Positions 15,008-39,755 of a stretch of 40,235 nt of DNA are shown one piece after another. The stretch comes from Rhizorhapis sp. SPR117 (lineage in GTDB: Bacteria > Pseudomonadota > Alphaproteobacteria > Sphingomonadales > Sphingomonadaceae): contig NZ_JAKKIE010000036.1 in assembly GCF_021742065.1 (NCBI RefSeq), positions 1 through 40,235 on the forward strand, in the 5' to 3' direction. Position numbers and translations under genes: made by a program. Within the stretch, counting starts at the first letter, position 1. Every line of letters starts with the position of its first letter. Under the pieces are notes generated by a model. It searched no databases. It was not told where the DNA came from and was given only the letters and a program-made list of their open reading frames with translations.

Positions 15008-17154
15008 TCTGCAGCATCCTTCAGCCCTTCCGGCGGCATGTTATGACCGAGCAGGCGCAGCACGTCAGCGGCGCTTTCGATCACATTACTTCCCGGGCCA
15101 TAAATCCCCGCCACGCCCGCGTCACGCAGGAACTGATAATCCTGCGCGGGAATGACGCCCCCGGCTACCACCTTGATGTCGCTACGTCCTTTTTCACGCA
15201 GCATATTGATCAGTTGCGGAATCAACGTCTTGTGTCCGGCAGCCAGACTGGATGCGCCGATCACATCGACATCTTTTTCCAGCGCCAGATACAGCGTTTC
15301 TTCGGGTGTCTGGAACAGGGGACCGCTCACGATTTCGAACCCCATATCGCCAAAGGCCGACGCTATGATGTTTGCGCCGCGATCGTGCCCATCCTGCCCC
15401 ATTTTAGCGACCAGCATCTTGGGTTTGCGACCCTTGCGCCGCTCGAACGCTTCGACGCCATCCACAACCTGTGTCCAACGATCGTCGCCGGCATAAGCGC
15501 CGCCATAAATGCCCTTTACCGGCTTTGGCACAGTGTCATAGCGACCGTATATATCCTCCATCGCCATCGAAATTTCGCCCAGCGTAGCCCGCGCCCGCGC
15601 AGCATCGACAGCAAGCGCCAGCACATTACCGTCACCCCTTGCTCCCTCGCGCAAAGCATCCAGTGCTGCGGTGCAAGCCGCCTGGTCACGCCCCGCCTTT
15701 ACCTTGGCAATGCGCGCGATCTGCGATTCCCGGACAGCGACGTTATCGACGTCGAGAATGTCGATTTTGTCTTCATCCTTCAGGCGGAATTTGTTGACGC
15801 CGACAATGACGTCCTCACCCTTGTCCACACGCGCCTGTCGGGCGGCGGCGGCCTCCTCGATCATGCCCTTGGGCCAACCTGCCGCTACGGCCTTTGCCAT
15901 GCCGCCTTCCGCCTCTACCCGCTCTATTATCTCCCAGGCCTTATCAACCAGATCCTTGGTCAGCGCCTCGATATAATAGCTGCCACCCAGCGGATCGACG
16001 ACATTGCACATGCCGGTTTCTTCCTGAATGACGATCTGCGTATTGCGGGCAATACGCGCGGAAAAATCGGTGGGAAGAGCAATCGCTTCATCAAGCGCGT
16101 TGGTATGGAGCGACTGTGTGCCGCCCAGCATTGCCGCCATCGCTTCAATCGTCGTGCGCATGACGTTGTTGTAGGGATCTTGTTCGGTCAAAGACACGCC
16201 AGAGGTCTGGCAATGGGTGCGCAGCATCTTCGAGCGCTCATCCTTTGCGCCCAATTCCGTCATGACCCGATACCAAAGCGTACGCGCGGCACGCAGCTTG
16301 GCTATTTCCATGAAGAAATTCATACCAATGGCGAAAAAGAAGCTCAAACGCCCCGCGAACTTGTCGATATCCAGCCCGGACGCCACGCCGTAGCGAACAT
16401 ATTCCGCGCCATCGGCAATGGTGAAGGCCAGTTCCTGCACCTGCGTCGCTCCGGCTTCCTGCATATGATAGCCGGAAATGGAGATACTGTTGAACTTGGG
16501 CATGTGCTTCGACGTGTAGCCGAAAATGTCCGAAATGATCCGCACCGAGGGTTCAGGCGGATAAATATAGGTGTTGCGAACCATGAATTCTTTCAGAATG
16601 TCGTTCTGAATGGTCCCGGACAGCTTGTCCTGCGAAACGCCCTGCTCTTCTGCCGCAATAATATAAAAGGCGAGGACTGGGATGACAGCGCCGTTCATCG
16701 TCATACTGACCGACATTTCGTCGAGCGGGATGCCATCGAACAGAATTTTCATGTCATCGATGGTGTCGATGGCAACACCCGCCTTGCCAACATCGCCGGT
16801 CACACGCGGATGGTCGCTATCATAGCCCCTGTGCGTGGCAAGATCGAAGGCGACAGATAAACCCTTTTGTCCTGCAGCCAGATTACGGCGGTAGAAAGCG
16901 TTGGACTCCTCTGCCGTGGAAAAACCCGCATATTGCCGGATCGTCCAGGGGCGGCCCGCGTACATGCTGGCCTTCACACCTCGCGTAAAAGGAGCAAAGC
17001 CAGGCAGTCCCGGATCAATATCAGCAATATCTTCAGCAGTGTATAGTGGCTTGACGGCAATGCCTTCCGGCGTGTGCCATGTCAGGTCCTTGCCCTTCAC
17101 TTCCTTCGAAGCAAGCGTGCCCCAGTCTTTCACTGTTGGTCTCTCGGTCATCAT
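15004..17154 (-). CDS. scpA: Methylmalonyl-CoA mutase
   Basis: This adenosylcobalamin enzyme converts (R)-methylmalonyl-CoA to succinyl-CoA. At 716 residues it is the single-chain form. The N-terminal TIM-barrel substrate domain includes [18 protein letters not shown] and [14 protein letters not shown]. The C-terminal B12-binding domain has D588-G-H590-D-R-G593, where the histidine is the cobalt ligand, followed by SSLAAGH and AGGVIP. The first ATG overlaps the crotonase stop (ATGATGA), and its own stop overlaps bioB. The mutase chaperone GTPase (meaB) is not in the window. No cobalamin riboswitch was seen upstream. Confidence 0.95.
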
Positions 17155-17927
17155 TTGCCCTCGAATATGGGAGCGCGTTTCGCAAGAAAGGCCTGCACCC
17201 CTGCTTTGAAATCCGCACTATACCCCGCCTCCCGCTGGTGCTGGCGTTCCATTGCCAGCGTCTGGGAGAATGTATTGTCCATAGCCTGTGAAACACCGTT
17301 GCGGATCAGGCCAAGTGCGTGTGTCGGCCCCTTTGCCAGCCGCGATGCCAATTCCATTGCTTTGTCCATCAGCACATCGTCATCGACGGTTTTGTGGATC
17401 ATGCCCCATTGGGCGGCCTGTTCGGCCGGGACCTTTTCGCCCAACATCATCATTTCGATTGCCCGCGCCCGTCCGACCAGTCGCGGTAGCATCCAGGTCG
17501 CGCCGCCGTCGGGCACCAGTCCGATATTGACGAAAGCCTGAAGAAAATAAGCCGACCGCGCCGCCACAACGAAATCCGCAACCAGCGCCAACGAACAGCC
17601 TATCCCTGCAGTTGCACCATGTACTGCCGCCACCATAGGCAAGGGAGCCGCCATGATCTGTTCGAGACCAGGGTGATAATATTCTTCCAATATCGCGCCC
17701 ACATCCTCGGGAAGTCCCTCCCCTTGAAGATCTGTGCCGCTACAGAAACCGCGCCCCGCGGCGTTCAGCAATATGGCACGAGCACCCCGCGACGGCATGG
17801 TGGCTACCGCATCAACGATTTCCCCCATCATTGCAGGATTCAGTGCATTCAACCGGTCAGGCCGGTTCAGCGTGATCGTGCCGACGCTATCGGCAATGCT
17901 GGCCTGAATGGTGTCATAATCGCTCAA
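17151..17927 (-). CDS. Enoyl-CoA hydratase/isomerase family protein, PaaG-like
   Basis: A crotonase-fold protein of 258 residues. FCSGTDL and [13 protein letters not shown] form the oxyanion-hole regions. In NIGLVPDGG the position that is usually the second catalytic Glu is an Asp, and the first catalytic Glu is also missing. That pattern matches PaaG-type isomerases rather than classical hydratases, so it more likely shifts a double bond or opens a ring. It starts at TTG 17927: AAGGAGGT lies six bases before it, and the TTG overlaps the epimerase stop as TTGA. Its place between epimerase and mutase suggests it serves breakdown of a substrate that yields propionyl-CoA. Confidence 0.85.
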
Positions 17928-18346
17928 TGGGATACCTCCTTCGGCACTTCCATCAGTTCAACCAGCACCCCGCCCATATCCTTGGGATGAACGAATATCA
18001 CCGGCGTTCCATGTGCCCCGATACGTGGTTCACCCAGCACTTTGGCGCCCTTGGCTTCCATCTCCGCCTTGGCGGCATGAATGTCCGGCACTTCAAAACA
18101 AACATGGTGCTGGCCGCCCTGCGGATTCTTTTCCAGATATTTGAGAATGGGGCTGTTTTCGCCCAGAGGTTCGATCAGTTCGATCTGGCTATTGGGCGTA
18201 TCGACAAAACAGACGCGCACACCCTGCGGCGGCAGGTCGAACGGTTCGTGTACCTTCGTTGCGCCAAGCAGATTGACGTACATTTCCACCGATTTTTCGA
18301 TGGAAGGCGTCGCTACGCCGATATGATTCAAACGACCAATGCTCAT
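17924..18346 (-). CDS. mce: Methylmalonyl-CoA epimerase
   Basis: A small glyoxalase-fold (VOC) protein of 140 residues that converts (S)- to (R)-methylmalonyl-CoA, the step between the carboxylase and the mutase. RLNHIGVATPSIEKSVEMY opens the first beta-alpha-beta unit with metal ligand H8. QHHVCFEVPDI and the C-terminal GVLVELMEV carry further ligands. Start ATG 18346 is supported by GGAG eight bases upstream and shares one base with the thiolase stop (TGATG). The frame is open further upstream inside the thiolase, but that part is not real. Confidence 0.94.
   Translation of the reverse strand: MSIGRLNHIGVATPSIEKSVEMYVNLLGATKVHEPFDLPPQGVRVCFVDTPNSQIELIEPLGENSPILKYLEKNPQGGQHHVCFEVPDIHAAKAEMEAKGAKVLGEPRIGAHGTPVIFVHPKDMGGVLVELMEVPKEVSH
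17934..17941 (-). promoter_or_regulatory. Strong ribosome binding site fixing the TTG start of the PaaG-like gene
   Basis: AAGGAGGT on the minus strand is a near-perfect anti-Shine-Dalgarno match, six bases before TTG 17927. It sits inside the last codons of the epimerase gene. It shows that the TTG is used despite being a weak start codon. Confidence 0.75.
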
Positions 18347-19530
18347 CAGAGTTTCTCCACGATCATGGCAATGCCCTGCCCGCCGCCGATGCACATTGTG
18401 CAAAGGCCATATTTGCCGCCGGTACGTTCCAACTCATATAGCGCTTTTACGGTCAAAATGGCACCCGTCGCGCCGACCGGATGGCCCAGCGCAATGCCGC
18501 TGCCGTTAGGATTGACCTTCTCTGGATCGAAACCCAATTCCTGCGCAACGGCACATGCCTGCGCTGCAAAGGCTTCGTTGCTTTCGATAACATCGATGTC
18601 GGCAAGACTGAGGCCCGCGCGCTTGAGTGCGATAGGAACGGCCTTGACCGGCCCTATGCCCATCAATTCCGGCTCCACCCCTGCATGGCCCCAGGCGATG
18701 ATGCGGCCCATGGGCTTCAGGCCCTTTTCATCGACCGCCTTTTGTGAGGCAAGGACGACTGCCGCCGCGCCATCATTGATACCCGATGCATTTCCCGCTG
18801 TTACAGAGCCTTCCTTGTCGAAGGCCGGACGCAGCTTTGCCATTTCATCAAGGTTCGCGTCCCCGCGGACATGCTCATCAGTATCAAACATTGTGACGCC
18901 CTTGCGCGTCTTCACTTCGACGGGCAGAATTTGCGATGCGAAGCGCCCTTCCGCTTGTGCCCGCGCGGCCCGCTGGTGGCTGACTATGGCGAGGGCGTCC
19001 TGTGCTTCGCGGGTAATCTGGTGCTTTCTGGCGACGTTTTCCGCCGTGATACCCATGTGAAAACCTTCAAATGGGTCACTCAGCACCGTCAACATGGCGT
19101 CTACGGCAACGCTGTTCCCCATCTTGGTGCCCCACCGTGCGCTGGTTAGCACATGGGGTGAACGGCTCATGCTTTCCGTTCCGCCGCAAACTGCGATGTC
19201 ACATTCACCAAGCGCAATCATCTGCGCCGAGGAAATGATCGCCTGTATTCCCGATCCGCAAAGACGGTTGAGCGTCAGCGCAGGAGCCTCGATCGGAAGG
19301 CCCGCCTCAATGGCGGCAACACGTGAAAGATATGCATCCTTCGGCTCGCTCTGAATCACCTGGCCCATCACCACATGCTCAACATCACCTGGTTCAATGG
19401 CTGCACGCTTGACCGCTTCGGCAATCACCAACGCCCCCAGTTTCGACGGCGCAAAATCCTTGAGCCCGCCGCCAAAGTCGCCGATGGCAGTGCGGACACC
19501 GGACAGGATGTAAATGGGTTCAGAGGTCAT
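18346..19530 (-). CDS. Acetyl-CoA C-acyltransferase (BktB-like thiolase)
   Basis: A 394-residue thiolase with C91 in RLCGSGIQ and the C-terminal motifs IALGHPVGATG and TMCIGGGQG. Its place in the propionyl-CoA operon suggests a thiolase that releases propionyl-CoA and acetyl-CoA from 3-ketovaleryl-CoA or 2-methylacetoacetyl-CoA, as BktB-type enzymes do. That specificity is inferred from context only. It is separated from pccB by a 106-base gap with no obvious terminator, and is translationally coupled to mce at its end. Confidence 0.9.
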   Translation of the reverse strand: MTSEPIYILSGVRTAIGDFGGGLKDFAPSKLGALVIAEAVKRAAIEPGDVEHVVMGQVIQSEPKDAYLSRVAAIEAGLPIEAPALTLNRLCGSGIQAIISSAQMIALGECDIAVCGGTESMSRSPHVLTSARWGTKMGNSVAVDAMLTVLSDPFEGFHMGITAENVARKHQITREAQDALAIVSHQRAARAQAEGRFASQILPVEVKTRKGVTMFDTDEHVRGDANLDEMAKLRPAFDKEGSVTAGNASGINDGAAAVVLASQKAVDEKGLKPMGRIIAWGHAGVEPELMGIGPVKAVPIALKRAGLSLADIDVIESNEAFAAQACAVAQELGFDPEKVNPNGSGIALGHPVGATGAILTVKALYELERTGGKYGLCTMCIGGGQGIAMIVEKL

Positions 19531-28017: not shown

Positions 28018-28404
28018 ATGAACACTATAGTCAGGTCGCCGGACCAGCCCAATGCGACGCATTTTCAAACCAGTGAGCTACGCTACAGCGTGATGATCAA
28101 GGGCCGGCTTATAAACGATGATTTTCGTGACGGGCTGGCACTGCGCATTCTCAACATATCCGAAGGCGGGATCATGGCCGCGATTCCCTACGGCGTTCGG
28201 GTTTATAGTGAAGTCATGATCGAACTGCGCAACATTCCGCCAGTCAGTGGCCGTATTGCGTGGTGCCGAAAGGACAGGATCGGTGTTGCATTCGATGAAA
28301 AGATCGATCTCGACCTGTTTTTCGGACGCCAGGATGCCCAAAAGGGCATGGCGCAGAACAGTTCGGCGATGAACCAGCCCCTGATCCGAAAATTGAATAG
28401 CTGA
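28018..28404 (+). CDS. PilZ-domain protein
   Basis: A 128-residue single-domain protein. The N-I-S-E-G-G motif (residues 49-54) and the following strand pattern ending GRIAWCRKDRIGVAFDEKID fit a PilZ domain, the usual cyclic-di-GMP receptor. The N-terminal RxxxR ligand motif is not clear: only ELRYSVMIKGRL is seen. Cyclic-di-GMP binding is therefore uncertain. GGGGAA precedes the ATG. It stands alone between era and the histidine kinase, in the same direction. Confidence 0.75.
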   Translation: MNTIVRSPDQPNATHFQTSELRYSVMIKGRLINDDFRDGLALRILNISEGGIMAAIPYGVRVYSEVMIELRNIPPVSGRIAWCRKDRIGVAFDEKIDLDLFFGRQDAQKGMAQNSSAMNQPLIRKLNS

Positions 28405-28530: not shown

Positions 28531-30231
28531 GTGGTCCCGAGTTTGAATCAGCATGTGTTCGGCAGGCACGCCAAGCGATCTGACCGGACATTTAAATCGC
28601 TTCTGGCATTCCCGAGGTCCCTCTTGCTGGGATCTGACCCGGAGTGGCTTATCGGGATCGGTCGACTGATCACGGCGCTATTTGCTGTCGTGGCGATTTA
28701 TCTCGATCCGACACAACCGGCCGTTTTCATGCGTGAGGCGAAGGTAACACTCGCGCTTTATGTCATTTTTGCACTGTTGATGGTCCTCTTCCCACTTCGC
28801 CGGCCACTCGACAGTACGGTACATATCGCGGTCCATTCCGTCGACGTTCTGGTTCTTGGCTGGCTTGCTTTTCTGACCAACGAACTCACCAGCCCTTTTT
28901 TCTCCTTTCTTCCATTCATCCTTCTGGCGACAACGATGCGTTGGGGTTTGCGAGGCGCCATCGCAGGAGCCGCGGTCCTGGAAACCTTACTTATCGTCAT
29001 TGGGCTACCTGATCTCGATGACGGCGAGTCCGAACTCAACGTGCTTATTATGCGCTCGTCCTATTTTATTGTGGCGGCGGTGATGCTTGGCTATTTCGGT
29101 GCGTACCGGGAACGCAGCCGACAACGACTTGCCCGGCTGGCGGATTGGCCTTTCGATGCAGTAGCGGGAGATCGGCAGCATTGGCTGGGCCATCTTTTTC
29201 AGCATGCCGCCGATGTGCTGGGTGATCCCCGTCTGCTCGTCTTATGGCGCGATCAGGACGACCCGACGGGCAGCATCGCCTATTGGAGCAATGGCGAATT
29301 GAAACTGATAGATATTTCCGGCGAAACTTTCTGGTCCCGGTACGACCCGGAACAACGTCATCAGCCGGGACGCAATACCACTGGAACTGCCCAGACCGCC
29401 GAAGTGATCGCTATTCTCAATTCCCAACCGGAACTGGCCGCTGAATCAGGAAAGCCCATGCGATATGCATGCTCTGCAACCTTTTCCAGTATCCAATACC
29501 GTGGACGTGTCTTTGTGATCGATCCGGCCTGCCATCCTGATGAAAGCCTGTCACTAACTGGTATCATCGCCACCCGAATGGCGTCGGAACTGGAACGACT
29601 GGCGTTGATGCAGCAGACGGCGGAAACGGCTCGCTCGCAGGAGCGTGTCCGGCTGGCGCGGGATATGCATGACAGCATCCTCCAGGATTTGACCGCCGCG
29701 AGCCTGAAGCTCAAAATGATCACCGGCACCGTCTCCGGCGAGGCCAAATCGCAGCTTGCCGATGTCAATTCGCTGGTATTCGACCAACAGCGCCGCATCC
29801 GAAAATTCGTCGAGGACCAGCGATCGCCCGCCAAAACTGCCGAGACCGAACTTTCCGTAGCACTGAATCAGTGCGCACTGCTCCTTCGGCGGCAATGGGA
29901 CTGCCGGATCGACCTTGTTCTCGACCCTCCCGATGTCGAGGTTCCCAACCGGATGTCACATGAGCTTTCCCAAATCATTTCCGAGGCCACGGCCAATGCG
30001 GTCCGTCATGGAGGAGCGACACTGGTGCGTGTCAGACTGGCGCAGAAGGCCACTGGCCTGAAACTCGAGATCACCGACAATGGTTCTGGCATCCTGAATG
30101 CGCAAGAGACCAAGCGGCCGCTTTCATTGACAGCGCGGGTCACGGAATTGGGCGGCACCCTGTCCGTGAACCGCCTTGCACCCGGTTTCAGCCTGCTTAT
30201 CACGCTGCCGCTTGCTATGGAGCTTTCCTGA
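28531..30231 (+). CDS. Membrane histidine kinase, HisKA_3 (NarL-partner) type
   Basis: A 566-residue sensor kinase. Five to six hydrophobic segments lie between about residues 40 and 190 (for example ALYVIFALLMVLFPL, FLPFILLATTM). A GAF-like middle region spans about 205-355. The DHp helix holds H380 in LARDMHDSILQDL, the HisKA_3 motif. The ATPase domain has SEATANAVRHGG and DNGSGI. It starts at GTG 28531 after AGGAG. The cognate response regulator follows 15 bases downstream. The signal is unknown; a membrane-embedded sensor without a large periplasmic domain points to a stimulus in or at the membrane. Confidence 0.9.
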   Translation: MVPSLNQHVFGRHAKRSDRTFKSLLAFPRSLLLGSDPEWLIGIGRLITALFAVVAIYLDPTQPAVFMREAKVTLALYVIFALLMVLFPLRRPLDSTVHIAVHSVDVLVLGWLAFLTNELTSPFFSFLPFILLATTMRWGLRGAIAGAAVLETLLIVIGLPDLDDGESELNVLIMRSSYFIVAAVMLGYFGAYRERSRQRLARLADWPFDAVAGDRQHWLGHLFQHAADVLGDPRLLVLWRDQDDPTGSIAYWSNGELKLIDISGETFWSRYDPEQRHQPGRNTTGTAQTAEVIAILNSQPELAAESGKPMRYACSATFSSIQYRGRVFVIDPACHPDESLSLTGIIATRMASELERLALMQQTAETARSQERVRLARDMHDSILQDLTAASLKLKMITGTVSGEAKSQLADVNSLVFDQQRRIRKFVEDQRSPAKTAETELSVALNQCALLLRRQWDCRIDLVLDPPDVEVPNRMSHELSQIISEATANAVRHGGATLVRVRLAQKATGLKLEITDNGSGILNAQETKRPLSLTARVTELGGTLSVNRLAPGFSLLITLPLAMELS

Positions 30232-30246
30232 AATGGAGCTTTGCCG

Positions 30247-30882
30247 ATGCATTCGGTAATCCTTGCGGACGATCATCCGCTGCTGTTGCGCAGTCTGAAG
30301 GATGTGATCAGCGCCGACCCGGATTTTCGTGTTGTTGGTGCGACAACCAGCGGGACGAAAGCACTCTCCCTGATCCGTAGCCATCAACCGAATTTGGCGG
30401 TGCTTGATGTCTCCATGCCGGATATCGGGGGATTGGATATCCTGCGGACGATTTACGAATATAATCTGCCGGTCAAGGTGATCTTCCTCACGGCAACTCT
30501 GACCGGACGACAGATCGCGGACGCGATGGCCATGGGGATAAGGGGGCTCCTGCTCAAGGAATATGCGACCGAAACGCTGCTGGATTGCATGCGCAAAGTA
30601 GCCGACGGAGAGAAATGGCTGCCATCCGAGCTGGTTGCCAAAGCAACGCATGACACGCGGAGCAGCGGCGCCGAGCGATTGAGCCAACTGACCACCCGCG
30701 AACGTGAGGTCGCGAACCTGATTTGCGCCGGGTTGTCCAATCGATCCATCGCCGGAAAACTGGGAACATCGGAAGGAACGGTCAGAATCCACCTTCATAA
30801 CATGTATCAGAAACTGAATATCAGCAACCGCACCGCACTCGCGGCGCTTCATTTCGAGCACCGGGCTGAACGCAATGGCTGA
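30247..30882 (+). CDS. NarL/LuxR-family response regulator
   Basis: A 211-residue regulator. The receiver domain has the acidic pair ADDH at residues 7-10, phospho-acceptor D54 in LAVLDVSMPD, and a conserved Lys in LLKEYA. The C-terminal LuxR-type helix-turn-helix (LTTREREVANLICAGLSNRSIAGKL, with the recognition helix around EGTVRIHLHNMYQKL) binds DNA. ATG 30247 is preferred because GGAGC lies seven bases upstream; TTG 30241 would be too close. It works with the kinase just upstream. The membrane-protein gene immediately downstream is a possible target or partner. Confidence 0.93.
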   Translation: MHSVILADDHPLLLRSLKDVISADPDFRVVGATTSGTKALSLIRSHQPNLAVLDVSMPDIGGLDILRTIYEYNLPVKVIFLTATLTGRQIADAMAMGIRGLLLKEYATETLLDCMRKVADGEKWLPSELVAKATHDTRSSGAERLSQLTTREREVANLICAGLSNRSIAGKLGTSEGTVRIHLHNMYQKLNISNRTALAALHFEHRAERNG

Positions 30883-30919
30883 CCTGCCTTCATGGTGGCA
30901 CAGGCGGAGGGGTGGCATC

Positions 30920-31906
30920 ATGAGCATACTCCGGATCGGCCTTGGAGTTGGCGTCGGAGCGGCATTCCTTGTCCTTCTTTTCCGTCATGTGGATTTTGCG
31001 ACGGTGAATGCCATCCTGGGCCGCGCACTGATATGGCCGCTTCTATTGGCGCTGCTCGCCTATGCGGCCGATTTCGTTCTGCGCGCCGTGCGGTTCTGGG
31101 TCATGCTGCTGGCGATCACCGGTCGTCCATTGCCCTTGAAGCCCAGCATCAGCCCGTTCATCGCGAGCTTCGGTATAAGCGACATCCTCCCGTTGCGGGC
31201 AGGAGACGGTTTCAGGATAATATGGTTCAACCGCCAGTTCGGTATTCCCGCCGGAACGCTGATCGGCGCCATGCTGGTCGAACGGGTGCTTGATCTGGTG
31301 TCGATTCTTGCGCTCGGAGGGATCGCGCTGGCGCTGGTCGGCGTGTCTGCGCCATCGGTCCTCGTCACCAATTTTCAGCTTGTCCTGGGCCTCACCCTTT
31401 TTGTCTGTCTGGCGATATTGTTCGCGCCAACACTGCTGTCCCGCCTGCTGGAGCGGCTGACATTCCGGGGTGCGGCAACTCCCGTAGCGGCGGTGCTGGG
31501 GGCGCTGCGCTCCACCTCAGCCGCCGTTCAGCACATGGGAAACTGGCGTAGACTGGCCCTGCTCACCGCTTTTTCCTTGGCTTGCTGGCTGCTGGAAAGC
31601 ATTGTCTTGCTCTGTGCCTGGTTCAGCCTCGGCGGCAGCGTCAGCGAGATAATGAAAGCTTTTCTTGCCTTTGTTTTCAGCACGCTCGGCACGCTGGTCC
31701 CCAGTCTTCCCGGTCATTTCGGCTCGTTCGAATATTTCGGGGTGCAAGCATTTACTCTGACGGGCGTCGATCCTTCATTTGCAACAGCCGTGGTGTTGCT
31801 GGCACACCTCCTGCTTTGGGCGCCGACAGCAATATTCGGAGTGGTCTGGTTGCTGATGGGTTCAGCGCGGTCGCCAGTACATGCGCCCGCTCCCTTGCAA
31901 CCCTGA
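30920..31906 (+). CDS. AglD / LPG-synthase-TM family membrane protein (flippase-like)
   Basis: A 328-residue protein of the lysylphosphatidylglycerol-synthase transmembrane family, with about eight helices. Family blocks visible are FGISDILPLRAGDGFRIIWF, VERVLDLVSIL and SLPGHFGSFEYFGVQAF. It lacks the soluble aminoacyl-transferase domain of MprF. Relatives act as flippases or as part of glycolipid and hopanoid pathways. ATG 30920 follows GGAGG (30906-30910); an upstream ATG at 30875 overlaps the regulator stop and would add 15 charged residues. It is co-directional with the two-component genes and ends three bases from the convergent epimerase. Confidence 0.82.
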   Translation: MSILRIGLGVGVGAAFLVLLFRHVDFATVNAILGRALIWPLLLALLAYAADFVLRAVRFWVMLLAITGRPLPLKPSISPFIASFGISDILPLRAGDGFRIIWFNRQFGIPAGTLIGAMLVERVLDLVSILALGGIALALVGVSAPSVLVTNFQLVLGLTLFVCLAILFAPTLLSRLLERLTFRGAATPVAAVLGALRSTSAAVQHMGNWRRLALLTAFSLACWLLESIVLLCAWFSLGGSVSEIMKAFLAFVFSTLGTLVPSLPGHFGSFEYFGVQAFTLTGVDPSFATAVVLLAHLLLWAPTAIFGVVWLLMGSARSPVHAPAPLQP

Positions 31907-32966: not shown

Positions 32967-34412
32967 TCAACGAAACCCGTCCTCGATCGCTTTGCATGCA
33001 TTGCGATGCGCAACTGCCATCACGGTTCCTTGAGGATTGACGACCGTAGGGCCACAAAGCAGCGATGCATCGGCGATATACAGCCGGTCGGCACCGTGCA
33101 CGCGCCCGAAGGAATCCGTGGCGCATAACCCTTTATTCTCCCCCATCGGACAGGACGAGAAGACATGCACCGATGTTGCGCTGGAATCGGATCGGTCGAG
33201 CGTGGCGGGCAATGCGTGGACATCCGCCAAAGAATATAGCGCTGGATATCCGAGAATACATGGATATACGACCTTGGCGCCTGCGGCAAAAAGCGCTTCC
33301 GCCAATCGTTTCAGTCCTTCGGCGAGTTGGCTACGCTCTGCGGCGCCTTGGCTGATCGTGACCAGAGGATCACGAAAGCCGGGCAAGTTCCGGACCTTCG
33401 CATATCCGCTCTTGTTCTGGACATAATAGATCGCCATTCGCCGCCAGTTCCGGTCGACCTGTTCCAGGTGATCGGGATGGGCAGCCATGGCAAGGGCGAG
33501 CATCGGGCGCGTGCTGATGGAGCAGCCCATACCAAAACGCGGTTCGAACTCCTTGATCTGGTGAACGGGGTCCTGATCGCCCGGTTTCTGGACGTCCTCA
33601 TCAAAGAGAGCGACGACTTTCAGCATCGGGTGAAAGCGAAGTGAATTGCCTATATTTCTGGCAAATCCCGATCGACGGAGGAGCGCTGGCGTCTGCACTG
33701 CCCCGCACGCGACGAACACAATATCCGCCGAAATATCAATGTGCCTCGGGGGAGATGATTTTGGTGCATGTCGCGCGCTGATCCGCCAGCGACCGCCCGA
33801 ACGTGTCAGCCGGCTCACCCGAGTATCGGCGATCAGATGCCCGCCTGCATCCAGGAAACGGGGAATAAAGGTTTCCGACATCGACTGCTTGCGACCGGGC
33901 GCACCATAGCGATAGAGGCGCGGCGCCTCGATGGCGTTCCAGCCGAGACTGTTTGCGCCTTCCTGCAGCCGCGTCGAGAGCAGCGACGCTTGGTCCGGCA
34001 GATATTCGACATGCGCAGTTTTTTCGCAGGCCATGAAATGGGGCATCAAATCGTCGCTCAACAGGTCTTGCACGCCGAATTCTGCCCGCCATTGTTCCAA
34101 TATATAGTCGGGGATGCGATGGTACAGCCCGCGATTGACCTCGCTGCCGCCACCCACGCATCTGCCTTCGACATAAGCAATTTTAGTGCGGCCAAATGCG
34201 ATGTTGACGCCGCCATTTCGATATTTCTGCAAAATCTCTGTGTTAGAAAAATGCGGTGCAGAGTTAATGGACAGGTTCGCGCCTTCCTCTAGCAGCAGGA
34301 CGGATCGTCCCGTCTCGGCGCACAGGGCAGCCGTGACCGCGCCGCCCGGCCCCGACCCGATAACGGCGATATCAGCAGCCATTTCCGCGGCGAGGGGATC
34401 AACCCTACTCAT
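32967..34412 (-). CDS. GMC-family FAD-dependent oxidoreductase
   Basis: A 481-residue flavoprotein. The FAD-binding GSGPGG lies at residues 19-24, followed by LLLEEG. GRCVGGGSEVNRGLYHRIP is the second FAD region. The C-terminal domain has HVFSSCPMG and VNPQGTVMAVAHRN, the usual places of the active-site His and the second His/Asn. GMC enzymes oxidise alcohols (sugars, sterols, fatty alcohols). There is no signal peptide, so it acts inside the cell. Start ATG 34412 follows GGAG and overlaps the preceding small gene by eight bases (ATGAGTAG). Substrate unknown; context suggests a lipid-linked sugar or a lipid alcohol. Confidence 0.87.
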   Translation of the reverse strand: MSRVDPLAAEMAADIAVIGSGPGGAVTAALCAETGRSVLLLEEGANLSINSAPHFSNTEILQKYRNGGVNIAFGRTKIAYVEGRCVGGGSEVNRGLYHRIPDYILEQWRAEFGVQDLLSDDLMPHFMACEKTAHVEYLPDQASLLSTRLQEGANSLGWNAIEAPRLYRYGAPGRKQSMSETFIPRFLDAGGHLIADTRVSRLTRSGGRWRISARHAPKSSPPRHIDISADIVFVACGAVQTPALLRRSGFARNIGNSLRFHPMLKVVALFDEDVQKPGDQDPVHQIKEFEPRFGMGCSISTRPMLALAMAAHPDHLEQVDRNWRRMAIYYVQNKSGYAKVRNLPGFRDPLVTISQGAAERSQLAEGLKRLAEALFAAGAKVVYPCILGYPALYSLADVHALPATLDRSDSSATSVHVFSSCPMGENKGLCATDSFGRVHGADRLYIADASLLCGPTVVNPQGTVMAVAHRNACKAIEDGFR

Positions 34413-34851
34413 GGCCACCGCTCCATTCATAATCCTGACCGTAAAGCTCCGAATAAAGGCCGAAAACCGCCATCGTCCTATAATAAGTCATCAGCGCGCG
34501 CCGAAATTGCAGCCGTGAACTTTCCCATACTTTGATGTGAGCGATCCGTTCTGCAAGGCCAAGCCGGTGAAAGGGCTTGCCTTTAAAGGGATAGGATGAG
34601 GCATCGAACAGCAAGGTGAGGATGCGGAAAGCCATGCGAAGATAGTCAGGCATTTTTGCATGAGCCATCAGCAGGAATTCCGACACACGCTCCACCGTCT
34701 CGCAACGCTCTGGCGTGGCCTGCCGCTGCCCGATCATGGCATCGGTCAACGCCCGGACAGTTCGATCGAAACGGCGCGGCACCGATGGCCGGTGTTGCAA
34801 ACCAGCGCTTGAAACCGATAGCGCGGTCGGCGGGACGAGAGGCCTATCCAT
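34405..34851 (-). CDS. Small hypothetical protein, possible partner subunit of the GMC oxidoreductase
   Basis: A 148-residue helical protein without signal peptide or membrane segment. The part FDASSYPFKGKPFHRLGLAERI and the following WESSRLQFRRALMTYYRTMAVFGLYSE recall, weakly, the pattern of gluconate-2-dehydrogenase subunit 3-like proteins that accompany GMC enzymes. Both ends overlap its neighbours by eight bases, so it is translated in step with the HAD and GMC genes. Start ATG 34851 has no clear ribosome site, consistent with coupling to the HAD stop. The function is not established. Confidence 0.7.
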   Translation of the reverse strand: MDRPLVPPTALSVSSAGLQHRPSVPRRFDRTVRALTDAMIGQRQATPERCETVERVSEFLLMAHAKMPDYLRMAFRILTLLFDASSYPFKGKPFHRLGLAERIAHIKVWESSRLQFRRALMTYYRTMAVFGLYSELYGQDYEWSGGHE

Positions 34852-35599
34852 GGCCGGTGGCAATCGAAGGAGACTCCGGCACATGCAAGCCCGGTTGCGT
34901 GCGATTACCTTCCAATCCTCGCGCAGCCCGAAGGATCGGTTGGAACAATGGATCGGTATAGGAAAAAAATGTATCCGCTCTTACCCCAGGACGCCGGGAC
35001 CGGATGATCGCTCGCATGCCGACGCGCCGGGCAGCCTCCCAATCCCGATCAAATCTATCGCCGACCATCAGGGATCTCCCTGCATCCATGCCGGTCAGCC
35101 TCAATATCTTGTACAAGCCGGCCGGATCGGGTTTCAGCCGCCCTACATCCTCGTCGTTCGCGGAAACGACCAGATGCGGCTTCAACCCCAGAGCATCCAG
35201 CTTGGCGGCGGCAGGATAATCAGAAAAAATGGCAATGGTCCTGTTCGATGCGGCAAGCGCTTCGAAAAGCGGCTGAACACCAGGATAGCGATAACCATGA
35301 AAGTGGCGGAGCGGTCGCTGCTCGATCCATTCCGAAACAAGATTGCGCACATTTTCCACTGAACAACCGCATTGTGTAGCGGTGAGCGCATATTGGCGGT
35401 TTACGAAATCATCACCCGCCTCTTCGCCCAGCGCCTCACGGTATTGCCGAAAGGTCCGAAGTACCCTGATCGTATGCAGACTTCCGGAGCGGATGGTCTG
35501 CCGCATCAAGGCAGCGAGCATCCGGGCGCGCAGCCGCCTTTGGTCATATAGCGTGCCGTCGACATCGAAGATGATCAGATCAATGTCATCCCAGTTCAT
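34844..35599 (-). CDS. HAD-superfamily phosphatase
   Basis: A 251-residue HAD hydrolase with all four motifs: DVDGT (nucleophile D12, acid D14), FSDYP, KPDP and GDRFDRDWEAA. The helical cap sits between motifs I and II, as in subfamily IA. ATG 35599 is chosen because AAGGGG is nine bases upstream; earlier ATGs at 35608 and 35605 are too close to that site. It lies directly after the UbiA gene. In other bacteria a HAD domain is fused to UbiA proteins of this type, so a likely task is removing the 5-phosphate from polyprenyl-phosphoryl-ribose-5-phosphate. This is inferred. Confidence 0.85.
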   Translation of the reverse strand: MNWDDIDLIIFDVDGTLYDQRRLRARMLAALMRQTIRSGSLHTIRVLRTFRQYREALGEEAGDDFVNRQYALTATQCGCSVENVRNLVSEWIEQRPLRHFHGYRYPGVQPLFEALAASNRTIAIFSDYPAAAKLDALGLKPHLVVSANDEDVGRLKPDPAGLYKILRLTGMDAGRSLMVGDRFDRDWEAARRVGMRAIIRSRRPGVRADTFFSYTDPLFQPILRAARGLEGNRTQPGLHVPESPSIATGHG

Positions 35600-35624
35600 G
35601 GGCATCATCCCCTTGATGACAGCA

Positions 35625-36653
35625 TTATTTCACCGATATGAAGCTTGGCTTCGACAGATAATCCAGCAGCGGCATATCAACGAATGTAGCGAGCAGGAGC
35701 ATCAGGATGACCGCGCCCAGCGCGATCGAAAGGCGACGCGAGCGAAACAGCCTTTCGGGTCTCTGCGCGATGGAGTTTTTCAACAACGACAACCACAAGT
35801 ATAGCGCAAAGAGAATCGCAATGCTGGGCAAGGCGACGATATATTCCAGCCGGTATTTGATCAGGAATATCGCAATGAAGAAAGCCGACAAGATCGCGTA
35901 GAGAAAACAGGAAACGGTCAGGTTTTCCGCCGTATAGAATTTGAATGAACGCCGGTAGCGCTGTAGCAGCCCAACGCCTGCATCCGTTGAAATATCCCGA
36001 TATTCCGAAAGACGCTTTGCCCCCATCAAAAAGGCGCCCCCCATCCAGTAGGCCAGCAGCAGACTGCTTGGCGGCAGGGTGGTCGGGTCGATCATGGTCC
36101 ATCCCAGCATCAACCGGATAGGGTTATTGACGGACTCGCTGATGACGTCGAGATAGACCCTGTCCTTGGTCCTTACCGGATTGACGTTATAGATCAGGCC
36201 GGAAAACAGGAACAGAACCGACGTATAGAAGAATGGCGCCGACAGCTGAAACGCCAACAGAAGGCCGACAGCGGCCAACAGAACATATTCGATATAGACA
36301 AACGATGGATAAAGCTCGGCATTGACGGCCGTGCGGCCCGATTTTACCGGGTGGAAGGCATCGAAATGACGGTCCAGCCATTCATTGATTACATAGTTCG
36401 CAGAAGCAATCGCAATTGCGCTGCCAAATCCGATAACCAGCGCCATAATGCTGTGGTTCAACGATGGATCTCGCAACGCATAGGCCAGAATCATGCCCGG
36501 AATGATGAAGACATGCTTTGTCACATGATCGAATCGGGCCATAGCCAGATAGTCTCGAAGCGCTCCTTTCCGCCGGACCGCGACACCGCTTGCCGCCAGT
36601 CCCGCTTGGCTGCCCATGACACCAACTTCCCCAGCTTTCATGATCTGGTCCAT
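35625..36653 (-). CDS. UbiA-family prenyltransferase, decaprenyl-phosphate phosphoribosyltransferase-like
   Basis: A 342-residue integral membrane protein with about eight or nine helices. The first motif is N90-E-W-L-D94-R-H-F-D98-x-x-H101-P-x-K104-x-x-R107. This is closer to the N-D-x-x-D-x-x-x-D-x-x-HPxK form of the mycobacterial DPPR synthase (Rv3806c) than to quinone UbiA. The second region, VRTKDRVYLDVISESVNNPIRL, and GAKRLSEYRD also match that subgroup. DPPR synthases move 5-phosphoribose from PRPP to a polyprenyl phosphate. The start shares one base with the glycosyltransferase stop (TGATG). The family call is firm, the phosphoribosyl activity probable but unproven. Confidence 0.85.
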   Translation of the reverse strand: MDQIMKAGEVGVMGSQAGLAASGVAVRRKGALRDYLAMARFDHVTKHVFIIPGMILAYALRDPSLNHSIMALVIGFGSAIAIASANYVINEWLDRHFDAFHPVKSGRTAVNAELYPSFVYIEYVLLAAVGLLLAFQLSAPFFYTSVLFLFSGLIYNVNPVRTKDRVYLDVISESVNNPIRLMLGWTMIDPTTLPPSSLLLAYWMGGAFLMGAKRLSEYRDISTDAGVGLLQRYRRSFKFYTAENLTVSCFLYAILSAFFIAIFLIKYRLEYIVALPSIAILFALYLWLSLLKNSIAQRPERLFRSRRLSIALGAVILMLLLATFVDMPLLDYLSKPSFISVK

Positions 36654-38224
36654 CAGTCCGTTCCCTCTGCGACAGTGGGCGATGCCGCATAGATGCGACC
36701 GTCGCGCTCGCTATTGATGAGTTTCAGATTGAGCAGACGTTTCAGTTCCGCCTCTGAAGCCAGATAGAAGCGCCAGTCGACATCATCGAAAAAGACGACA
36801 AACGCATTCTCTTGGGCAAGCTTGAGACGCAGGCTTTCAACCTGTTTTAGATAAGGATTGCGCGGATCATCGAGGCCGGTCCGCCACTGTATACGATAGG
36901 GGATATAATGGGCGCTGCGCTTTGTCAGATAGCCCATGACATCTACGCCATTACTATAGATCAAGGCGTCCGCGGGCAGCCTATCAACGGCTTGCATGGT
37001 CGGCGAAGATGCCCATGTGCGACTGACGAAACCAATACCTTCACGATAATCGTCGTGCGTCCTGTCCACGGTGCGGACCATGTGGCTTGCCAGGATGAGG
37101 GCCGCAAGGCCAACCAGCATCCAGTGAAGGCCGCGGACAGGCCCCCTTGCTGCAGAGGCATGCGCAAGCAGAATCGTCATCATGATTACGCTCGTCACAT
37201 ACACCGGGAAAGTATAACGACCGTTCAGCAGCAGGTTCGCCTCGATGGCGGTCGAAAGCAGGAGAAAACCTGTATAGGACAGAAAGAAGAGGCCAAGCGC
37301 CACCGGGAGCATGGCCTCGACCACTCTGGTCTCACGCGCCAGCGCAAACACGCGTCGCCCATGCCAGACAGACAGCCAGGCACCGCCCAGCAATACCAGA
37401 CAAAGAACCCCGACAGTTACCGCCAACGGCAATTGGCTCGGCAATAGCAGCGTCGTATAAGCTTTAAGGCTTGCCATCCAGGTGGTGGCGTCCATCGTGC
37501 CGTAGAATTTAAGCTCCCGTCCAATAGAACGGCCCGCGACAGCTTCGCTAATGAACGCCCAGAGTATGAACACAGCCCCGCTTACGACTGCCAGCCTGAT
37601 CGCGTCCATGAATCGCTCTACGAAACGATGACGCGGGTTGAGAATGATGCACAGCGCGATGGCAGCGCCCAAAGGCGGCGCGGTAAAGCGCACGAGAGTT
37701 GCAAGGCCAACGGCAATACCGCATGCAAACAGCCAGGTCTGGCTTTCAGTCTCCCAAAAGCGCATCATAACGAGCACCGTCACCAGAATGGCGAATATAA
37801 ACAGCGGCTCCGACATGGCCATCGCATGCAGCGAAACAAATGGCGGTGCGAAAATAATGAGCGCTGTGCCAACGGCGGCGTAGGCGTATTTTCCGGTGGT
37901 CCGCACCAGAATGTGCCAGATCAGGACGGTGTTGGCGCAAAGGATTACGAACCCAATCAGTTTTGCAGCATATGCGACACTGAGGCCCGTTGCCGTTGTT
38001 GCCATCAATAACCAGGGATAGAGCGGCGCATCGAAGGGCCGATCGTCGATGTTCATGTAACGTGTGCTATCCGGCAGTATCCCGATACCGTATCTGGTGC
38101 ACAACAGGAACAATATGGCGGACGCCAGGACAAAGGCCATTCCGCCGACCCAGAAGAGCAGGTTGGTATTATCCCCGAACGCAATATCGCGGCGGCTCAT
38201 GACCGCACTGGAGTCATAGAACAT
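36653..38224 (-). CDS. GT-C membrane glycosyltransferase (PMT/GT39-like)
   Basis: A 523-residue protein with about ten to eleven helices. The first outward loop holds PDSTRYMNIDDRPFDAPLYPW, where acidic residues (D52, D60, D61) sit where GT-C enzymes bind the phosphate-linked donor. LHAMAMSEPLFIF and VGLATLVRFTAPP are typical PMT-family blocks. A soluble C-terminal part of about 130 residues follows. Such enzymes use a polyprenyl-phosphate sugar and act on the periplasmic face. GGAAGGTGAA precedes the ATG. It is the second gene of the operon and is coupled to UbiA, which could make its donor. Confidence 0.85.
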   Translation of the reverse strand: MFYDSSAVMSRRDIAFGDNTNLLFWVGGMAFVLASAILFLLCTRYGIGILPDSTRYMNIDDRPFDAPLYPWLLMATTATGLSVAYAAKLIGFVILCANTVLIWHILVRTTGKYAYAAVGTALIIFAPPFVSLHAMAMSEPLFIFAILVTVLVMMRFWETESQTWLFACGIAVGLATLVRFTAPPLGAAIALCIILNPRHRFVERFMDAIRLAVVSGAVFILWAFISEAVAGRSIGRELKFYGTMDATTWMASLKAYTTLLLPSQLPLAVTVGVLCLVLLGGAWLSVWHGRRVFALARETRVVEAMLPVALGLFFLSYTGFLLLSTAIEANLLLNGRYTFPVYVTSVIMMTILLAHASAARGPVRGLHWMLVGLAALILASHMVRTVDRTHDDYREGIGFVSRTWASSPTMQAVDRLPADALIYSNGVDVMGYLTKRSAHYIPYRIQWRTGLDDPRNPYLKQVESLRLKLAQENAFVVFFDDVDWRFYLASEAELKRLLNLKLINSERDGRIYAASPTVAEGTD

Positions 38225-38276
38225 TGCTTCACCTTCCCTTTCTTCTGGTGACGACCATGAATGTGTCGTCCTGGGT

Positions 38277-39755
38277 TCAGGAAAAAACGCGCTTCAGGTT
38301 CTTGGCAACGAAGCGAACGACTGCGTCGGTTATGCCTTTGGCGAAAATATCATCCAGAGCCGCGATGAGCATATCGATCTGCTCTTCCCGAACGATGAGC
38401 GGCGGCATGAAGTGCAGCATGTCACGGGCGCCGGGCTGAAAATGCACCAGGAGATTATGGCGCTCGTAAAGTTCGCGAGCGAGGCTGGCGATCAGGACCG
38501 TTTGATATGTCAGAAATAGCGGATTTCTGGAGATATCCACCAGTTTTGACGCCATGTCCTGCTGGAAATTGAGGCGAATGGCCTGGAACAACCCCTTGCC
38601 CCGTACCTCCAGGACGGTGCCCGGATATTTCTGCTTCAACCCATGGAGGCCCTTGGCCAGATAGTCGCCCATGACCGCGGCGTTATCTATAAGATGGTCG
38701 CGCTGAAGCACATTCAACGTTTCAATCGCCACTGCGCAGCTTTCACCAAGGCCGCTGAAACTGGAACTGTGCAGGTTGCAATCCTGCTTGTTGCCATAGG
38801 CGCGGTCGAACAGTGTCTGCGACGTCACCATCGCCCCCATCGCACGCTTGCCCCCGCCCAGCGTTTTGGCCAAGGTCACGATGTCCGGAACGACATCTTC
38901 ATATTGAAAGGCACAGAACCTGCCGGTTCTGCCGGTCCCCACCTTCACCTCATCGAAGATCGAGAGGATATCATGCTTCCGGCAGACCTGCGCCAGTTCG
39001 GTAAGGAACCCTTTTGGCGCTACCTCGCATGCCGTGCCCCGGATCGGCTCGACAATGGCCGCAATGATGCGGTTGCCGCCATGCCCAATCGTTTCCGCCT
39101 CGATTGCTCCCCTGACTGCGCTGATGTCGCCATAAGGTACGCAGACTATATTTTCCTTGGGGATTCCCATTAAAAACCCGCGCTGAAAATCGGCAGCCGT
39201 GGTCAGCGACAGCGCCCCATGAGTTTTGCCGTGGAAAGCGCCCTGCATGCAGAGAAATTTTGTTTTGCCCTTGGGCGTCTGGATACGCTCACACAGCTTC
39301 ATCGCCGCTTCATTCGCCTCTGACCCGGAAACAGCGAAGAAGGACACCTTCAAGGGATCAGGCAGATATTGCGCCAGATTGTATGCAAGCGCACCTTGCA
39401 GCTTGTGAGGGGCGAGCTTTATGCAGTCGATGACATTCCTGTCATGGCACTTGTTTTCCGCCGCTACAATTTGCGGATGGTTGTGCCCCAGCGCGGCGAC
39501 GCCCAGTCCAGCCGAAAAGTCCAGCAGCGTCCGGCCATCGGCAAGCCAGATTTCCATGCCCCGCGCGCCTTGAATATCCATGTCTTTCAGGCCAAGCACG
39601 TCAAAGACCTGCAACATGTATTTGTTCAAGTGATCTGCATAAAGTTTATTTGCAGCGTCAATATCCAGATCAAGACTTTGATCGAGCGTCAGCAGCCGCA
39701 AATCGTCATGTTCATGATCGGCTATTTCTTCTTCAACGGACAGGGCAGTCAACAT
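38277..39755 (-). CDS. Class III aminotransferase (PLP-dependent)
   Basis: A 492-residue enzyme. FSAGLGVAALGHNHP, SGSEANEAAMKL and the HGKTHGALSLT segment are class III blocks. The PLP aspartate lies in IFDEVKVGTGRTG, where the usual Gln after DEV is Lys. The PLP lysine is in TLAKTLGGG. An N-terminal extension of about 45 residues is acidic. Relatives use ornithine, putrescine, N-acetylornithine or lipid aldehydes; the hopanoid aminotransferase HpnO belongs to the same broad class. It is the first gene of the seven-gene operon, 52 bases before the glycosyltransferase. Its substrate cannot be read from the sequence. Confidence 0.87.
   Translation of the reverse strand: MLTALSVEEEIADHEHDDLRLLTLDQSLDLDIDAANKLYADHLNKYMLQVFDVLGLKDMDIQGARGMEIWLADGRTLLDFSAGLGVAALGHNHPQIVAAENKCHDRNVIDCIKLAPHKLQGALAYNLAQYLPDPLKVSFFAVSGSEANEAAMKLCERIQTPKGKTKFLCMQGAFHGKTHGALSLTTAADFQRGFLMGIPKENIVCVPYGDISAVRGAIEAETIGHGGNRIIAAIVEPIRGTACEVAPKGFLTELAQVCRKHDILSIFDEVKVGTGRTGRFCAFQYEDVVPDIVTLAKTLGGGKRAMGAMVTSQTLFDRAYGNKQDCNLHSSSFSGLGESCAVAIETLNVLQRDHLIDNAAVMGDYLAKGLHGLKQKYPGTVLEVRGKGLFQAIRLNFQQDMASKLVDISRNPLFLTYQTVLIASLARELYERHNLLVHFQPGARDMLHFMPPLIVREEQIDMLIAALDDIFAKGITDAVVRFVAKNLKRVFS

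Follow-up and report, generated by a model that had tools for sequence, protein, structure and literature searches.

The stretch analyzed here is a 40,235-nucleotide sequence from Rhizorhapis sp. SPR117 (contig NZ_JAKKIE010000036.1, positions 1 to 40,235; hereafter the window). It carries seven successive minus-strand genes, encoding a class III aminotransferase, a GT-C glycosyltransferase, a UbiA-superfamily protein, a HAD phosphatase, a small protein, a GMC flavin oxidoreductase, and an extended SDR epimerase/dehydrogenase, and these are faced by genes for a flippase-like membrane protein and a two-component system (Table 1). We consider it probable that the product and substrate of this cluster is a lipid-linked pentofuranose derived from ribose, and most likely aminated.

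Table 1. Positions and family assignments of the cluster genes and their plus-strand neighbors in the window
Feature	Position	Strand	Family evidence
Class III pyridoxal phosphate (PLP) aminotransferase, 492 aa	39755-38277	minus	PF00202, 250 bits
GT-C (PMT_2) transferase, 523 aa	38224-36653	minus	PF13231
UbiA-superfamily PPPRS/DPPRS-like protein, 342 aa	36653-35625	minus	PF01040, 71 bits
HAD phosphatase, 254 aa	35608-34844	minus	PF00702/PF13419; DVDGT and GDRFDRD motifs
Small all-helical protein	34405..34851 (start 34851 likely from alignment; 34884 and 34737 possible)	minus	no family
GMC flavin oxidoreductase, 487 aa	34430 (or 34412) to 32967	minus	PF00732 and PF05199
Extended SDR epimerase/dehydrogenase, 340 aa	32932-31910	minus	PF01370, 128 bits; GGSGFIG and YGKSK motifs
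LPG_synthase_TM (LPG_TM)/flippase-like membrane protein	30875..31906 (start maybe 30920)	plus	PF03706, 132 bits; TIGR00374
LuxR-type response regulator	30241..30882 (start maybe 30247)	plus	PF00072 and PF00196
Sensor histidine kinase (HisKA_3)	28531..30231	plus	PF07730 and PF02518

An earlier note on this DNA had named the same seven genes. The open reading frame (ORF) list and the family scans agree with it on their presence, strand, and families, and the ORF coordinates agree with the tight or overlapping joints that it described. The aminotransferase and GT-C genes are separated by 52 bases, the GT-C and UbiA genes have one base in common, and 16 bases lie between the UbiA and HAD genes. 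The HAD gene overlaps the small-protein gene by 41 or 8 bases (start at 34884 or 34851), the latter overlaps the GMC gene by 26 or 8 bases (start at 34430 or 34412), and a gap of 34 bases precedes the SDR gene. The interval given for the run, 34405-39755, omitted most of the GMC gene and all of the SDR gene, both of which were named in the text of that note. The convergent LPG_TM gene ends three bases past the SDR gene.

A UbiA protein of the phosphoribosyltransferase kind

The UbiA protein carries the motifs NEWLDRHFD (residue 90) and HPVK (residue 101). Its best NCBIfam model is NF008977, the decaprenyl-phosphate phosphoribosyltransferase, at 74 bits, which also detects all 20 members of the alignment, at an E-value below that of any other family. 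A profile search against PDB returned an Rv3806c-type structure first (8j8j, E = 5e-11). The Rv3806c contacts with phosphoribosyl pyrophosphate (PRPP), Mg, and the lipid phosphate, as given in PMC10994848, were mapped by hand via printed alignments onto 80 aligned sequences (79 loci and the window, with L019 left out). Gaps aside, 10 of the 13 are kept, namely R22, K28, Y70, N73, D77, K87, R90, Y138, K143, and K191.

In a tree of 39 rows, the window-type proteins (20) grouped with those of a second type of cluster described below (10) with support of 95/79. They did not place with quinone or heme prenyltransferases but stood apart from four heme O synthases and four 4-hydroxybenzoate prenyltransferases; a family scan confirmed the labels (four heme O synthase, four ubiA_proteo, and one chlorophyll synthase). 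The closest profile, the kept contacts, and the position in the tree therefore uphold the earlier assignment to the decaprenyl-phosphate phosphoribosyltransferase kind. As judged from its sequence, the window UbiA is a PRPP-using phosphoribosyltransferase-like protein, not a quinone or heme enzyme.

Some observations count against this assignment. The window protein scores 74 bits against the NCBI equivalog cut-off of 234 bits; it is a divergent relative and hence not filed as an equivalog. Across the UbiA alignment, the position of Q135 is glycine in 80 of 80 sequences, that of Y157 is asparagine in 79 of 80, and that of K208 is variable. The tree has flagged long branches and was computed without a true actinobacterial decaprenyl-phosphate phosphoribosyltransferase. 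If the protein were instead a prenyltransferase of quinone, heme, or other lipid metabolism, its neighbors would form a lipid-modification operon. PF01040 does span quinone, heme, and other UbiA prenyltransferases, the window protein has weak matches to bacteriochlorophyll, heme, and quinone models, and the archaeal UbiA 4tq3 was matched at E = 1.6e-5 in the profile search. Against this stand the kept PRPP-site residues, the first rank of the phosphoribosyltransferase model for the window protein and its lowest E-value over the alignment, the separation from verified heme and quinone enzymes in the tree, and the partnership with HAD and GT-C proteins (with GtrA in 30 of 80 loci), and we regard this alternative as very improbable.

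Since the UbiA protein is of the phosphoribosyltransferase kind, the UbiA, HAD, flippase, and GT-C core would be a pentofuranose three-component system, and we assign the UbiA/HAD/GT-C core to it with high confidence. A phosphoribosyltransferase, a HAD phosphatase, and a GT-C are encoded together in the window and are conserved together in relatives. Kelly et al. (2024) established a widespread system made up of a UbiA-type phosphoribosyltransferase, a HAD phosphatase, a flippase, and a GT-C, in which an SDR or DprE1/E2 diversify the pentose (PMC11127046). The view in the earlier note that a polyprenyl-phosphate-pentose pathway would be undescribed in Gram-negative bacteria has therefore to be given up: a pathway of this kind has been published in Citrobacter youngae and put forward for Pseudomonas (PMC11127046), and one is also proposed for Azorhizobium Nod factors (PMC2443382).

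Conservation of the gene set and a parallel cluster

Linkage was examined in the best 80 of 283 loci from a genome scan, chosen by UbiA similarity, with gene presence determined by tblastn with identity thresholds. Matches under threshold went uncounted; these were an LPG_TM protein below 35% (L025, 30%) and GMC proteins below 40% (L028, L031, and L035). Aminotransferase orthologs (59-75% identity) occurred in 15 of the 80 loci, all 15 of which also encoded the GT-C, the small protein, and the GMC oxidoreductase, with HAD in 14. Such co-occurrence goes beyond chance. The GMC gene was present in 21 loci, and the small protein was its constant partner (20 of 21). A sensor kinase was found in 11 of the 15 aminotransferase loci versus 2 of the 65 others, a response regulator adjoins the cluster in relatives, and the kinase together with the LuxR-type regulator (window 28531-30882) accompanies the cluster there on either side. 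Conservation thus indicates that the unit is larger than had been noted, with the histidine kinase, response regulator, and LPG_TM protein belonging to it in many relatives. A PilZ-domain protein is encoded at 28018-28404 of the window, preceding the sensor kinase gene.

Searches without UbiA as the starting point were made in two families. Across 298 genomes from the family of the Sphingobium locus L014, a GMC search (E ≤ 1e-80) picked out three, and an aminotransferase search (E ≤ 1e-65) picked out exactly those three. In two of these genomes all ten genes are in place, those of the two-component system among them; contig ends divide the set in the third. G160, one of the three, seems to be the L012 genome and so adds no new case. 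Among 247 genomes from the family of the Pararhizobium locus L015, five carried the GMC gene. The check that the earlier note proposed, whether the genes stay together in relatives, was thus borne out, the set recurring in Sphingomonadales and Rhizobiales. Three points tell against the strength of this linkage. The 80 loci are UbiA-chosen and related, so Fisher values overstate the significance of association; L007 lacks both HAD and LPG_TM; and only one of the five rhizobial-family GMC genomes (G367) has the aminotransferase ortholog.

A second cluster was reached through paralogs of the aminotransferase (33-41% identity) and of the SDR (29-34%). Its five genes encode a HAD-UbiA fusion (NF006088, 583 bits, over the cut-off), a DprE1-family oxidase (NF053785, 332 bits against a cut-off of 500; DprE1 structure 4aut, E = 3e-67), a 146-aa ArnF-like protein (55 bits against a cut-off of 99), an SDR, and a class III aminotransferase. 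It adjoins gyrB and tpiA in the four of the first five loci (L097-L101) that share those flanks. The aminotransferase query matched 127 of the 247 genomes in the L015 family, with one ortholog (75%) and 126 paralogs at about 35-41%. Composition was checked in those five loci and in 20 paralog loci picked along the ranking (L152-L171), of which 17 carry the complete set of five, two are truncated at contig ends, and one lacks DprE1 there but has it elsewhere in the genome. As composition is known for 20 plus five loci, the presence of this cluster in half of the family rests on the aminotransferase matches. A third arrangement (L151:5899-12232) has a HAD-UbiA fusion and an SDR opposite a distant GMC protein (35%), an SMR flippase, and an SDR (41%); no aminotransferase was found in that stretch. 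The parallel DprE1-type cluster gives the best backing for an interpretation in which the extra genes serve to oxidize the sugar and then to reduce or aminate it.

Proposed oxidation and amination of the pentose

The GMC protein carries a GSGPGG motif, His422, and Asn465, and its top PDB matches by profile were pyranose oxidase, cholesterol oxidase, and cellobiose dehydrogenase. As a GMC protein, it does not belong to the DprE1 family of FAD_binding_4 oxidases. The earlier note had placed it in DprE1's position, and this is favored by the paralogous cluster, in which a DprE1-family protein lies beside the same aminotransferase and SDR families. A DprE1 match was absent at E ≤ 1e-20 in 7 of 16 genomes searched (G160, G212, G003, G004, G005, G010, and G367), all seven with a window-type cluster, and was present in the other nine, one of which (G286) has weak partial matches only. 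These results suggest that the GMC protein is likely a functional substitute for DprE1 from an unrelated family. It is from this replacement pattern that we would propose oxidation and then reduction of polyprenyl-phosphate ribose here.

Two results weigh against this reading. The best alignments of the GMC protein to PDB entries cover only short cofactor-binding stretches and reveal little about its substrate, and a model of the small protein (110-residue form; mean predicted local distance difference test [pLDDT] score, 84) gave no significant fold match. No Pfam or NCBIfam family passed the cut-off for the small protein in three family scans, and its profile had a single PDB match, at E = 0.46. 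A likeness of this protein to the small subunit found in GMC sugar dehydrogenases was considered and is unsupported. Elsewhere, the GMC gene is in two pieces in L149 and L150 (G367 and G525), reflecting sequencing error or decay. A distant GMC oxidase lies about 5 kb from UbiA-HAD-GtrA in L028, L031, and L035 (near 15900-18400); in L028 it is followed by an aldo/keto reductase, perhaps another oxidase-reductase pair.

If the product of the GMC protein is a carbonyl in need of reduction or transamination, every GMC locus should have an SDR or an aminotransferase, and this is what was found. The SDR is present in 16 of the 21 GMC-bearing loci, in 10 of the 15 with an aminotransferase, and in all six without one; no GMC locus (0 of 21) lacks both. 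The five loci that combine aminotransferase and GMC with no SDR of at least 40% are L001, L003, L009, L010, and L019. In the genomes of L001 and L003, a 33% SDR sits in the second cluster, and in L009, L010, and L019 the best SDR match in the genome is about 1e-17, where an unrelated SDR could still serve. Conversely, some Ensifer, Pararhizobium, and Mesorhizobium loci have the GT-C, UbiA, HAD, small protein, GMC, SDR, and GtrA genes and no aminotransferase ortholog (one of them, L017, is cut by a contig end); whole-genome searches of eight genomes for the ortholog gave only paralogs of at most 39%. A hopanoid link suggested by an HpnA match of the SDR was rejected, since the match reached 94 of 368 bits and was under the cut-off.

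These loci bear on a simpler alternative, in which the GMC protein oxidizes and the SDR reduces, giving only a neutral arabino- or xylofuranose epimer, with a different molecule, for example the acceptor, as the target of the aminotransferase. It gains from the 6 of 21 GMC loci that have GMC and SDR without the aminotransferase ortholog, from the distant GMC protein with SDRs in L151, and from Citrobacter, where the SDR ORF13 alone sets the pentose (PMC11127046). We hold it to be unlikely, in view of the 5 of 15 aminotransferase loci that keep the GMC gene with no SDR of at least 40%, tempered by the possible unrelated SDRs in three of them, and of the second cluster, which keeps aminotransferase, SDR, and mostly DprE1 together. 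Amination of the sugar, which the earlier note had mentioned with a "perhaps," is the main new point, and an aminopentose is the product that we moderately favor. As for the chemistry put forward in that note, the families, motifs, and linkage stand as seen, and the GMC, SDR, and aminotransferase steps stay at the level of proposal.

The closest solved relative of the aminotransferase is putrescine aminotransferase, and lysine 297 within AKTLGGG, a motif located in the sequence, is presumably the PLP lysine. Against our reading, the usual substrates of class III aminotransferases are terminal aldehydes or amines, a preference that would suit C5 or a different substrate. The GMC protein might turn the C5 hydroxyl freed by the HAD phosphatase into an aldehyde, from which transamination would yield a 5-amino-5-deoxypentofuranose, with the SDR epimerizing separately at C2 or C3. 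Both the putrescine aminotransferase relationship and the terminal-aldehyde preference of this class would agree with such a scheme, and pairs of an FAD dehydrogenase and a class III aminotransferase act in this way in aminoglycoside biosynthesis. The second cluster, however, has a DprE1-family oxidase, and the solved members of that family bear the name ribofuranose-2-oxidoreductase; we give the C5 scheme little credence next to oxidation at a ring hydroxyl.

Proposed transfer, known systems, and implications

An AlphaFold model of the GT-C (mean pLDDT, 85) had ArnT as its best fold match (5f15; E = 2.4e-8; template modeling score, 0.55), with oligosaccharyltransferases, ALG9, and AftA/AftB following closely. 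The model thus supports a GT-C fold class, and not a particular donor. In a tree of 25 GT-Cs, proteins from loci with and without the aminotransferase split cleanly (100/100). Control trees of UbiA, GMC, HAD, and SDR, made by a quick method, likewise set the aminotransferase-bearing loci apart; therefore the split mostly reflects two cluster lineages, and the GT-C tree was discarded as independent evidence of donor specificity, a loss to the aminopentose reading. Only one locus, L020 of Rhizobium sp. Root1334, adds to the weight of that tree. This genome has one UbiA (E ≤ 1e-10) and one GMC protein (E ≤ 1e-40) of the window type and two modules, one with a GT-C by the UbiA and GtrA nearby and the other with aminotransferase, GT-C, and LPG_TM in order; the two GT-Cs fall in different lineages. 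The same genome, to the detriment of this case, also holds a second-cluster-type aminotransferase (41%), so the supply of lipid-linked sugar is not uniquely assigned, and the two modules may share the one UbiA.

The LPG_TM protein (at least 35% identity) is present in 14 of the 15 aminotransferase loci versus none of the 65 others, and GtrA (PF04138 in the members scanned) in 1 of 15 versus 29 of 65. No MATE/SMR or GtrA protein was detected among the window genes scanned. We slightly favor a role for LPG_TM as the flippase for the lipid-linked sugar, in the place where GtrA would be. In Aureimonas, a YcaO gene follows LPG_TM (L001:14883-16391).

From what the sequences display, namely families, motifs, PRPP-site residues, conserved linkage, and the replacement of parts, we infer a route whose reactions, above all those after the second, are conditional, as are the carbon position, the flippase, and the acceptor. 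The UbiA protein would transfer phosphoribose from PRPP onto polyprenyl phosphate (step 1), and the HAD phosphatase would take off the ribose 5-phosphate (step 2). The GMC protein and its small partner would then oxidize a ring hydroxyl to a carbonyl, with C2 or C3 favored and C5 possible, doing the job of mycobacterial DprE1 without kinship to it (step 3). The carbonyl would be resolved in one of two ways: reduction or epimerization by the SDR would give a neutral pentose, and the class III aminotransferase would give an aminopentose (step 4). The LPG_TM protein may flip the lipid-linked product (step 5), and the GT-C may hand the pentose from polyprenyl phosphate to a periplasmic or envelope acceptor (step 6). 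The two-component system probably regulates the cluster.

A close published counterpart is the system of Citrobacter youngae O1/O2, with a UbiA phosphoribosyltransferase, HAD, flippase, GT-C, and optional SDR epimerase; there, HAD and UbiA are fused, the flippase is MATE/ArnE-like, and GMC and aminotransferase are absent, neither word occurring in the main text of PMC11127046. The mycobacterial Rv3806c/Rv3807c/DprE1/E2/Emb/Aft pathway likewise leads from PRPP to polyprenyl-phosphate ribose and employs a phosphatase, an oxidase plus reductase, and GT-Cs, but differs in its FAD_binding_4 oxidase (GMC here), its phosphatase family, and its lack of an aminotransferase (PMC10994848). The alphaproteobacterial noeCHOP genes of Azorhizobium have been proposed to make a D-arabinose precursor akin to the mycobacterial one; they serve Nod factors, and the accessible part of PMC2443382 mentions no GMC or aminotransferase. 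The Arn flippase and ArnT are named in PMC11127046. Like the cluster in the window, the second rhizobial cluster encodes proteins of the UbiA, HAD, SDR, and class III aminotransferase families alongside an oxidase and a protein resembling a flippase; it differs in its DprE1-family oxidase, HAD-UbiA fusion, and ArnF-like protein and in having no GT-C among its five genes.

Another point of comparison is the Arn system for lipid A modification with 4-amino-4-deoxy-L-arabinose (L-Ara4N), which combines a polyprenyl-phosphate aminopentose, a small flippase, the GT-C ArnT (the closest fold to the GT-C here), and two-component control. The Arn route begins with a UDP-sugar, adds the amino group before the sugar is moved onto the lipid, and uses another aminotransferase family, whereas the sugar here would come from PRPP. 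None of ArnA, ArnB, ArnC, or ArnD is among the families listed for the cluster (for the aminotransferase, among the best 25 of 69 matches).

The core is therefore known; new are the GMC oxidase with its small partner, the class III aminotransferase, and LPG_TM in GtrA's place. No description of the cluster or of a PRPP-derived aminopentose lipid was found in the open-licence literature among the matches listed, as judged by titles and abstract openings, and the accessible part of PMC12826051 holds nothing on the cluster. A broader proposition, on which we are evenly divided, is that PRPP-derived lipid-linked aminopentofuranose donors are a widespread and unrecognized, ribose-based counterpart of L-Ara4N. 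They would come in two forms whose unrelated oxidases (GMC with its small partner, or DprE1 family) feed related aminotransferases and SDRs, with a flippase of their own and, in the GMC form, a GT-C and two-component system of its own. The DprE1 form would be common in one rhizobial family, and occurrences of the GMC form would be scattered among Sphingomonadales and Rhizobiales.

Surface glycans are known to draw on polyprenyl-phosphate pentoses as neutral donors, and a PRPP-derived donor with an amino group would add a new activated sugar to these. If the proposition is true, environmental and plant-associated bacteria would have an envelope modification that is likely positively charged, unrelated flavin enzymes would carry out the same redox step, and a role would be suggested for DprE1-family proteins in bacteria without arabinogalactan. 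The cluster yields predictions that are testable gene by gene.

Two further gene neighborhoods were observed among the UbiA loci. In the Bradyrhizobium loci L044, L045, and L047-L053, UbiA is accompanied by an SDR of about 25-27% identity and by a large, conserved protein encoded upstream, whose relative in L034 had no Pfam match. Lachnospiraceae loci (L063, L067, L072, L073, and L076-L079) have several conserved genes in common upstream of UbiA-HAD.

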